Positions 1 through 2,874 of a stretch of DNA of 64,000 bases are shown in pieces. The notes beneath the pieces are model-generated. The model saw nothing but the letters and a program-made list of their open reading frames with translations. It made no database searches and was not told where the DNA came from. The position numbers and the translations under genes were made by a program. The number at the start of each line of letters is the position of its first letter. The stretch's first letter is position 1. The DNA lies in assembly GCF_000020965.1 (NCBI RefSeq), contig NC_011297.1, positions 1,832,525 through 1,896,524 on the forward strand, written 5' to 3'. Source of the stretch: Dictyoglomus thermophilum H-6-12 (GTDB taxonomy: Bacteria > Dictyoglomota > Dictyoglomia > Dictyoglomales > Dictyoglomaceae).

Positions 1-397
1 GGGAGATAAAAATAGAGGTTCTCCTTAAACGATTTAAAGAAATTATGGTGGAAGTTATATCCTTTCCAATAAAGTAATCATTTCTCTTTATAACCAGCAC
101 ATAACTTCCTTCAGAAGTCTGGTATATACCTTCCTTTTCTACAAGCCCTAAGTTAAAGGGATCCTGAATTATATTCTCCTTCTCCGAGATATAAAAAGAG
201 GAAATCCTTCCCCCCATCATTCTTCCCATCATAAAGCCCCTTCCTATACCAAGCCCCATAAAGGTCCTATAGAGGTCTTTCTTATTCTCGTCCATTAAAA
301 CATTTTGAGTTTGTACATAAAAAATAAAAGAAAGAATGATTATAAGAAAGAAAAGAATAAAAGCATAAATAAGCGTAATTTTCCATGCAATCTTCAT
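1..397 (-). CDS. Sensor histidine kinase, N-terminal part (cut by window edge)
   Basis: The first 132 codons are visible, starting with ATG at 397, only 3 bases after the stop of the response regulator gene. The protein opens with a membrane segment at about residues 7-27, followed by an extracytoplasmic region. That region contains a Met/Gly/Arg-rich stretch (MGLGIGRGFMMGRMMGGR) before a mixed alpha/beta sensor part. The kinase core lies outside the window, so the call rests on the N-terminal layout and on coupling to an OmpR-type regulator gene. Methionine-rich periplasmic segments can bind soft metals, but here that is only a guess. Confidence 0.75.
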   Translation of the reverse strand, partial: MKIAWKITLIYAFILFFLIIILSFIFYVQTQNVLMDENKKDLYRTFMGLGIGRGFMMGRMMGGRISSFYISEKENIIQDPFNLGLVEKEGIYQTSEGSYVLVIKRNDYFIGKDITSTIISLNRLRRTSIFIS

Positions 398-400
398 ATA

Positions 401-1063
401 TTAATCCTTCCTAAAGGAATAACCTATTCCCCTTATAGTTTTAATATATTTCCCCTTATCCCCCAATTTTTTCCTCAAATAGTTTATATATACCTCTACA
501 AGATTCTCTCTTTCATCATCGTAATCTCCCCATATCGATGACAAAATCTTCTCCTTAGAAAGAACAATATTCTCATTCTTCATGAGAAGATAAAGAAGAG
601 AAAATTCAGTTTTAGATAAATCTACCTCTTTGCCATCCACAATTACCCTATGCTGATCTACATAAAGCTCAATCCCCTCACTGCTTATAACCTCCTCTTT
701 TCTTTCTTTTCTCCTTGCAACAGCCTGGATTCTTGCAAGAAGTTCTTCTATACTAAAAGGTTTAACCACATAATCATCTGCTCCTAAATTAAAAGCCTCC
801 ACCTTATCCTTTACATCTCCTAAGGCAGTAAGCATTATTATTCCAAGGTCAGGATACTTATCCCTTAATCTTTTAGCCACCTCTTTTCCAGAAAGTCCTG
901 GTAGCATAATATCAAGAATAACCACATCAGGCTTAAATTCTTCCGCTTCAATTAGAGCATCATACCCATCCCCCACAACCCTCACCTCATGACCTTCATG
1001 GGTAAGCTCTAACTCCAAAAGATGAGCTATCTTTTTGTCGTCCTCTAACACAAGAATTTTCAT
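401..1063 (-). CDS. OmpR/PhoB-family response regulator
   Basis: 220 residues, normal for the family. The receiver domain (1-120) has the acidic pair D8/D9, phospho-acceptor D51, T79 and K101. A winged-helix DNA-binding domain (about 128-218) ends in the typical RGIGYSF motif. It is expected to be phosphorylated by the kinase encoded 3 bases downstream and to control transcription. It lies 35 bp after the heliorhodopsin gene on the same strand, so the three may be co-transcribed. A TATACT box 5 nt before the ATG, with no Shine-Dalgarno sequence, could also give the regulator its own leaderless transcript. The stimulus is unknown. Confidence 0.95.
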   Translation of the reverse strand: MKILVLEDDKKIAHLLELELTHEGHEVRVVGDGYDALIEAEEFKPDVVILDIMLPGLSGKEVAKRLRDKYPDLGIIMLTALGDVKDKVEAFNLGADDYVVKPFSIEELLARIQAVARRKERKEEVISSEGIELYVDQHRVIVDGKEVDLSKTEFSLLYLLMKNENIVLSKEKILSSIWGDYDDERENLVEVYINYLRKKLGDKGKYIKTIRGIGYSFRKD

Positions 1064-1098
1064 ATTTTAGTATATAACTTTTCTTCTATTCCTTAAAG

Positions 1099-1842
1099 CT
1101 AAACTGGTGCTAAAGTTCCTGCAAAAATCATCCAGGCTAAAGCACTCTTGGAAAATAGGCTCAAAAGTATGTAAACCTTCTCTCCAAAGAGATAATCCTT
1201 CCAAGGGCCAACCTTTTTATGCTGTAAGAAAGCATTAATTGCAAACATATTGAAGAAAATAAAAATTGTAGGAATGATTGCATAAACAAAAGCTGGAGGC
1301 TTGGCCTCTGAAGAACTAAGAGAACCATAAAAGTAAAGAAAAATCACAATCCAAGGAATAATTCCCGCAAAACAGCCATATATAAAAGCAAGCCAATTAG
1401 TTTTTTCAGTATATTGATTATGAATCTCAAACATTATTCCAAAAAGATTCATGGTAGCATTAACTCCAAACATAGCAATTAATGTGCCTATATCCCAAAC
1501 TCCTACCAACATACCTATTAACACTATCATAAGAGAAGAACTTAAAGCATATTCATAGAATCTAATTGGGTTCATTCTCCTTTTCAGAAAGCTGACATAC
1601 TGATTATAACCAACGGTAGAAATATAAAAATGAGCTATGGCAGAAATAAGTAAAAAGAGAGCTACAGCAGGACCAAATCTCAAATTATAGATTAATTGAG
1701 GATTAGGTTCAAGAGAAGAAGTTACCCTATCAAAAGCTAAAAAGTTGGAATAAATGGGATAAGTTTTATCATTGCTCAAAACGATCATCAAAATTCCTTG
1801 CAAAAGGTGAAGAAATCCCATAAAAAGATTAAATCTTCGCAA
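1099..1842 (-). CDS. Heliorhodopsin (retinal-binding seven-helix membrane protein)
   Basis: 247 residues and seven predicted membrane helices. Family signatures are clear: RFNLFMGFLHLLQG in helix A, YEYALSSSLMIVLIGML in helix C, and SKSALAWMIFAGTL in helix G. K232, in an SxxxK context (S228-K232), is the expected retinal Schiff-base lysine. E97 sits where the counterion glutamate is found, and H12 and H71 match the conserved pocket histidines. Heliorhodopsins are light-responsive but generally not pumps. The listed start is a TTG without a good ribosome site, so the exact start is uncertain. No retinal or carotenoid synthesis gene lies in the window. Downstream on the same strand is a two-component system. 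Confidence 0.93.
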   Translation of the reverse strand: MRRFNLFMGFLHLLQGILMIVLSNDKTYPIYSNFLAFDRVTSSLEPNPQLIYNLRFGPAVALFLLISAIAHFYISTVGYNQYVSFLKRRMNPIRFYEYALSSSLMIVLIGMLVGVWDIGTLIAMFGVNATMNLFGIMFEIHNQYTEKTNWLAFIYGCFAGIIPWIVIFLYFYGSLSSSEAKPPAFVYAIIPTIFIFFNMFAINAFLQHKKVGPWKDYLFGEKVYILLSLFSKSALAWMIFAGTLAPV

Positions 1843-1964
1843 AATCTGAAACTTTTTTATCTCTTCTACAAAAATCCCCCTTAAATTATCATTTCAAATT
1901 CTAAAATATTTTCCTTACAATAACAAGTATCTCCATTAACAAATCCAAATCTTAAAAATTCTGA

Positions 1965-1977: not shown

Positions 1978-2874
1978 ATGGATGTAAGTGTAATTATACC
2001 TACATACAACAGAAGAAAAATCTTAGAAATTACTCTTCCCCCAATACTCAATCAAGACTTTGAGGGAAAGTATGAAGTTATTCTCTCTGACGATGGTTCA
2101 GAAGATGAAACCTCTTCTTATATAGAGGAACTTAAAGAAAAATATACCCAACTAAGATATATAAAAAACAAGGAAAGGAGAGGACCTGCCTATACAAGAA
2201 ATAGAGCCCTTGAAATTGCGCAAGGCAGATTGATAGTTTTTATAGATAGCGACATATATGTAAAAAAAGACTTTTTAAAAAATCATTTTGAAATCCAAAA
2301 AGAGAATAACTTTAATGTACTTGTCCAAGGACCTGTAATCAACACTTATAATCTTGAAAAACCATGGGAAGAAAAATTTAAACTAAGAGACTTCTCCTCG
2401 GCTTATTTTGCTACAGGTAACGCAAGTATTGCGAGAGATATTTTACTGAAAACAGGCTTCTTTGACGAAAACTTCACTTTCTATGGATGGGAAGATTTGG
2501 AACTTGGAATAAGAATTAAAAAATTAAACATTAGAAAAATAAATTCTGAAAAAGTTACTGTATGGCATATACAAACTCCGCCTAAGCTTGAGAATCTCTC
2601 CTACCTTATAAATAAAGAAAAAGAAAGAGCAAGATCTGCCATATATTTTTATCAAAAACATCCCATATTAGAGGTAAAGATGATGATACAACTTGGGAGA
2701 ATATACGAGATAGGAAACTTTATACAAAGGTTTTTCGGATTATTAAATGAAAAAAACATTGAAAAATGGTGGCACTGGGCAGAAAAAAGGGGACACCATA
2801 CTTTATCTCAAATATTTCTCTCGGGAGTACTCAATAAAGTTTATTTAGAAGAGCTTAAAAGAATCTATTTATAA
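1978..2874 (+). CDS. Family 2 glycosyltransferase
   Basis: 298 residues with a GT-A fold. The N-terminal motif VSVIIPTYNRR and DDGS at 38-41 bind the nucleotide-sugar. IDSD (D90/D92) is the metal-binding DxD motif. FYGWEDLELGIR, near residue 180, resembles the C-terminal part of galactosyltransferase-like GT2 enzymes and carries the likely catalytic acidic residues. No membrane segment is present, so it is probably cytoplasmic or peripheral. Donor and acceptor cannot be told. The gene stands alone on the plus strand with a putative leaderless promoter and converges on the GH4 gene across a hairpin. Confidence 0.88.
   Translation: MDVSVIIPTYNRRKILEITLPPILNQDFEGKYEVILSDDGSEDETSSYIEELKEKYTQLRYIKNKERRGPAYTRNRALEIAQGRLIVFIDSDIYVKKDFLKNHFEIQKENNFNVLVQGPVINTYNLEKPWEEKFKLRDFSSAYFATGNASIARDILLKTGFFDENFTFYGWEDLELGIRIKKLNIRKINSEKVTVWHIQTPPKLENLSYLINKEKERARSAIYFYQKHPILEVKMMIQLGRIYEIGNFIQRFFGLLNEKNIEKWWHWAEKRGHHTLSQIFLSGVLNKVYLEELKRIYL

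Follow-up and report, generated by a model that had tools for sequence, protein, structure and literature searches.

Heliorhodopsins (HeRs) bind retinal, pass through a long photocycle and do not pump. Their function has largely been inferred from gene neighbourhoods, and a locus of the anaerobic thermophile Dictyoglomus thermophilum H-6-12 raises the question of how far such inference can be trusted. At one end of the 64,000-nucleotide stretch of the genome analysed here (hereafter the window) an HeR gene stands in a row with a response regulator and a sensor kinase. Is this a light-signalling operon, as an earlier note on this DNA had proposed, or an accidental neighbourhood? We suggest the second. 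The row looks tight, and once relatives are compared it appears as an insertion beside an older system, so that the locus shows how inference from neighbourhoods can mislead.

The HeR gene (1099-1842, minus strand) is a 247-codon ORF starting with TTG, and its product is certainly a genuine heliorhodopsin. It matches Pfam PF18761 with E 4e-98 and 328 bits (cut-off 26.7), exceeds the NCBIfam equivalog NF038020 with 356 bits (cut-off 100) and finds the solved structure of TaHeR (6is6) by phmmer with E 6e-77. The retinal lysine K232 in the SxxxK motif of helix 7, S228, the counterion E97 in helix 3 and the conserved histidine pair H12/H71 are invariant in an alignment of 37 HeRs. The full signature ascribed to this protein earlier (K232 in SxxxK, E97, H12 and H71) is borne out by this invariance. 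The AlphaFold model (pLDDT 90.5) has seven helices in the HeR fold with the beta hairpin in the A-B loop, and superposes on TaHeR with TM of 0.91-0.93. The inverted topology, with the N-terminus inside, is assumed from homology.

Next in the row are an OmpR-type response regulator of 220 residues with Response_reg and Trans_reg_C domains (401-1063, minus strand) and a kinase with HisKA and HATPase_c domains (minus strand), the first 132 of whose 411 residues lie at 1-397 and the remainder beyond the window at L004:5162-5999. A receiver and winged-helix regulator and a HisKA/HATPase kinase in one operon make this an OmpR-type two-component system. The gaps are 35 bp between HeR and regulator (1064-1098) and 3 bp between regulator and kinase (398-400); these distances, the coordinates and the same-strand order, all given in the earlier note, agree with the ORF positions. 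The genome, a single contig of 1,959,987 bp, has only three HisKA kinases, one of them directly after HeR, which makes the placement unusual.

Beyond the window the same strand continues with a lipoprotein-like gene, lnt, two LptC/LptA-like genes and an LptF/LptG permease (L004:880-5165); the first Lpt-like gene has no Pfam match and is named from its position in the row. The sister genome G001 (1,855,560 bp) keeps an identical row from regulator to permease, and so does G004, with one extra gene between the kinase and the lipoprotein gene. Other genes follow the kinase in G005, and the contigs of G002 and G003 stop in or just past it. In the best assemblies the two-component system is therefore part of an envelope gene row, which is context, not proof, for its regulatory target.

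The envelope genes touch on a separate matter. HeR genes are also found in metagenome-assembled contigs labelled Trueperaceae, Spirochaetota, Bipolaricaulota and Thermotogales (L071, L073, L074, L078-L081, L089, L091, L093, L106, L107), labels that hinge on binning. These groups are usually regarded as diderm. The presence of lnt and Lpt-type genes in an HeR-bearing genome, downstream of HeR itself, bears on the view, put forward in the literature, that only monoderms have HeRs; the paper making this claim counted five diderm markers for a Dictyoglomota isolate.

The history of the site can be read from the relatives. On the other side of HeR lies a divergent family 2 glycosyltransferase gene (1978-2874, plus strand), which in relatives of the same genus marks where the insertion site ends on the left. 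Three of these, G001, G002 and G003, have the glycosyltransferase/regulator/kinase block without HeR, the gap between glycosyltransferase and regulator being about 40 bp in G001 and G002 and about 370 bp in G003. Both junctions in D. thermophilum, on the glycosyltransferase side and on the regulator side, resemble these uninterrupted sites, with a segment of about 0.88 kb between them (1075-1953; borders set by eye from the junction alignments) that carries HeR and is absent from the three relatives. No HeR remnant was found at E <= 1 in the HeR-less Dictyoglomota, the 370-bp gap of G003 included. Orthologs of the kinase are present in five of six relatives (84% in G001, 74% in G003, 72% in G005, 64% in G002 and 53% in G004), never with HeR adjoining; G006 has no close ortholog. 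Judged from these alignments, an insertion in the D. thermophilum lineage is the simplest history of the site; a history in which the other species cleanly lost HeR would be less simple.

Is the linkage found elsewhere? Our comparison set comprised 80 HeR loci from bacterial and archaeal genomes (L033-L112), and the neighbour survey covered flanks of up to 6 kb on each side of HeRs close to that of the window. A same-strand two-component gene adjoins HeR in none of the 75 related loci with a recognisable HeR ORF, and a regulator- or kinase-similar gene occurs anywhere in the flanks in four of them, as counted with phmmer queries that may miss distant regulator types. Among 140 HeR-adjacent genes there is one two-component gene, on the opposite strand. 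Scanned with Pfam, 62 close neighbours on the HeR strand show neither Response_reg nor HisKA among their 25 commonest domains, in agreement with the HeR operon classes of PMC11109279, which include no two-component genes. The recurrent neighbours are DegV (six, confirmed in L084), MerR with B12-binding domains (four) and DUF2177 (three), besides alpha/beta hydrolases and one phytoene synthase (L060). By their domain make-up the MerR and B12-binding neighbours are CarH-like light-sensing regulators; they are known as an overall count, which could not be assigned to individual loci. The gene order in relatives speaks against the HeR-two-component operon proposed earlier, because five relatives keep the kinase without HeR beside it and same-strand adjacency is found in 0/75 loci. 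The arrangement resembles a local insertion more than a conserved light-signalling operon.

The HeR gene itself points to an outside source. In the tree the window HeR forms a clade with HeRs of a Caldisericum MAG and a Coprothermobacteraceae MAG (support 100/100), placed among Chloroflexota. Hosts of this clade belong to different phyla, so horizontal acquisition of HeR is likely on phylogenetic grounds, and we infer its direction. No HeR was found in phage records. Plasmids do carry such genes: a 180-kb cold-seep Chloroflexota plasmid (CP069395.1, L113) has an HeR 71% identical to that of the window, and on a 10.5-kb Lactococcus petauri plasmid of the MOBP type (L114) HeR has an IS6 transposase and a recombinase as neighbours. 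A small mobilizable plasmid such as the latter is a route for HeR transfer.

Among the seven Dictyoglomota genomes the only other HeR is that of G005. It is the closest copy to the window HeR (94% identity over 158 shared residues), and its neighbours on a contig of 7.8 kb are genes that by sequence, not by a domain scan, read as LacI- and MurQ-like; the kinase ortholog of this genome is on contig 6. The copy is broken, with about 90 nt missing, a frameshift and an in-frame stop, for which a contig edge or an assembly error may be responsible.

The start of the window HeR is altered as well. HeRs of near relatives have about nine extra N-terminal residues and an ATG start behind a Shine-Dalgarno motif; in the window HeR both these residues and the ATG are missing. 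The relatives' ATG falls nine codons upstream of the window TTG, where the sequence reads GTA (1867-1869, minus strand), with a Shine-Dalgarno-like AAGGGGG (1876-1882, minus strand) still present 6 nt upstream of it. The 247-residue TTG start is thus a fallback: the coordinates of the ORF given earlier are right, and the one correction is that this TTG stands in for the ATG of the relatives. The TTG has no upstream Shine-Dalgarno motif; by a crude count the same is true of the first start codon in 19 of 53 large window ORFs. Selection on HeR across the clade is strongly purifying (pN 0.07 and pS 0.83 against the Caldisericum copy), and the tree shows no rate acceleration for the window HeR. 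Since purifying selection is strong, the gene is no old relic, and any decay would be recent.

Could HeR and the two-component genes share a transcript? They are adjacent and co-directional and no terminator-like stem was found in the HeR-regulator gap, so a shared transcript is possible. The regulator may nevertheless have its own promoter. A -10-like box, TATACT (1069-1074, minus strand), lies a few bases ahead of the regulator ATG in each of the five genomes whose upstream region can be aligned, in the same place in G001, G002, G003 and G005 as here, which suggests a nearly leaderless promoter. Within the window its context is not unusual, and the support comes from the comparison across genomes. 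A scan for sigma-70 promoters gave 7 matches against 7.4 in shuffled sequences, no excess; hence promoter calls depend on genome comparison.

A light-dependent function would also require retinal. The genome, searched as the earlier note had proposed for retinal and carotenoid synthesis genes, has neither phytoene/squalene synthase (SQS_PSY) nor an RPE65-type cleavage enzyme, while the controls gave matches; the control of the BCD search gave none, and absence of BCD is not counted. HeR would need outside retinal or an unfamiliar route. The idea of a light- or retinal-linked signal output is thus upheld as regards real, adjacent and co-directional genes, and fails as regards gene order, which is not conserved. 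The genome also has a DNA photolyase. One photolyase gene (L123:5587-6888) is situated between two copies of a glycosyltransferase and PlsY-like gene pair, an arrangement that suggests a duplication around it.

We consider it probable, as the best explanation, that HeR was inserted beside an older, independent two-component system. Four things are shown directly: the family to which the protein belongs, the site empty of HeR in relatives, the lack of conserved linkage and the phylogeny. A Chloroflexota-related HeR would have been acquired horizontally and inserted, in one Dictyoglomus lineage, into the short gap between the divergent glycosyltransferase and the two-component genes. The latter would work through the kinase's own sensor domain and probably from their own promoter, without need of HeR; we infer this lack of functional coupling, as we do the promoter and any activity of HeR. 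If translated and given outside retinal, HeR would most likely be, as other HeRs are, a light-switched membrane protein contacting some other protein, which need not be the adjacent kinase, and transcription may run on from HeR into the regulator as a by-product. Against the insertion stand the small chance, 0.1-0.3% by an after-the-fact estimate, of landing upstream of one of only three HisKA kinases, the missing terminator, the purifying selection on HeR and the enrichment of two-component domains near HeRs reported by Bulzu et al. The missing terminator, the 35-bp and 3-bp spacing on one strand, of which the 35-bp gap suits read-through, the scarcity of HisKA kinases (the strongest point) and the published enrichment (PMC8612252) are also what speaks for recruitment of HeR as a light input, co-transcribed with regulator and kinase and modulating the kinase in the membrane so that the envelope genes come under light control. 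We give this little probability. The arrangement exists in one genome only, with adjacency in 0/75 related loci; the sensor loop of the kinase is as well conserved as its core in HeR-less relatives (86% between D. thermophilum and G001); the regulator has its own -10-like box and the HeR start codon is degraded. The kinase model (pLDDT 58) is too poor for a structure search. Comparative data do not support a light-linked HeR operon, and a combined history, in which an HeR acquired by a single insertion now light-gates the older envelope-linked system, has in our view a slim chance. If true, it would be a recent and testable capture of a signalling pathway by a rhodopsin, in a cultured thermophile carrying Lpt-type outer-membrane export genes.

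That HeR is instead recently decaying, with its start codon lost, little or no translation and no function, we hold to be unlikely, even with GTA in place of the ancestral ATG, a TTG lacking an upstream Shine-Dalgarno motif, a sister-genus copy in G005 that is already a pseudogene by deletion and frameshift, and no carotenoid backbone enzyme for retinal. The 247 codons are intact, all key residues are kept and the tree shows no acceleration; non-Shine-Dalgarno starts are found in other window ORFs, and rhodopsins can function in organisms without known retinal genes, according to PMC7734400. Very improbable, finally, is service to another protein such as DNA photolyase, as shown for the Trichococcus HeR (PMC9769723). 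Photolyase is patchy in Dictyoglomota: it is present in both HeR-bearing genomes and absent from G001, G003 and G004. This co-occurrence was striking at first and is broken by wider sampling, as G006 has photolyase without HeR and a Coprothermobacteraceae genome has HeR without photolyase; the match in G002 is sub-threshold in an incomplete genome, and in D. thermophilum the two genes are far apart.

D. thermophilum and apparently D. turgidum, both with complete genomes, offer a pair with and without HeR in which an effect of HeR on the neighbouring regulon could be sought. How does the locus compare with known systems? Proximity of HeR and kinase in Dictyoglomota is already published: Bulzu et al. 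2021 (PMC8612252), who describe one HeR-bearing Dictyoglomota isolate, report that two-component domains are significantly enriched within 10 kb of HeRs generally, and name Dictyoglomota among the phyla with HisKA genes near HeR. The window shares this HisKA gene near HeR. It differs in that the genes are immediate same-strand neighbours, in a 35-bp gap that exceeds the paper's operon rule of <10 bp, and in an association that is not conserved in relatives. With OmpR-PhoB-type systems the window pair shares Response_reg and Trans_reg_C, HisKA and HATPase_c; it stays under every NCBIfam equivalog cut-off among the matches listed, and the kinase differs by a conserved sensor loop of its own, about 95 residues long. 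The full-length HeRs of Caldisericum exile ZAV-07 (L033, 87% identical) and Coprothermobacteraceae Ch108 (L034, 85%) are flanked by an alpha/beta hydrolase and an M20-type-peptidase-like gene, with no two-component genes in the stretch examined. TaHeR (6is6) and 48C12 (6su3), 53% and 45% identical to the window HeR over the aligned stretches, have in common with it the fold of the PF18761 family, K232 in SxxxK, E97, H12, H71 and the hairpin of the A-B loop.
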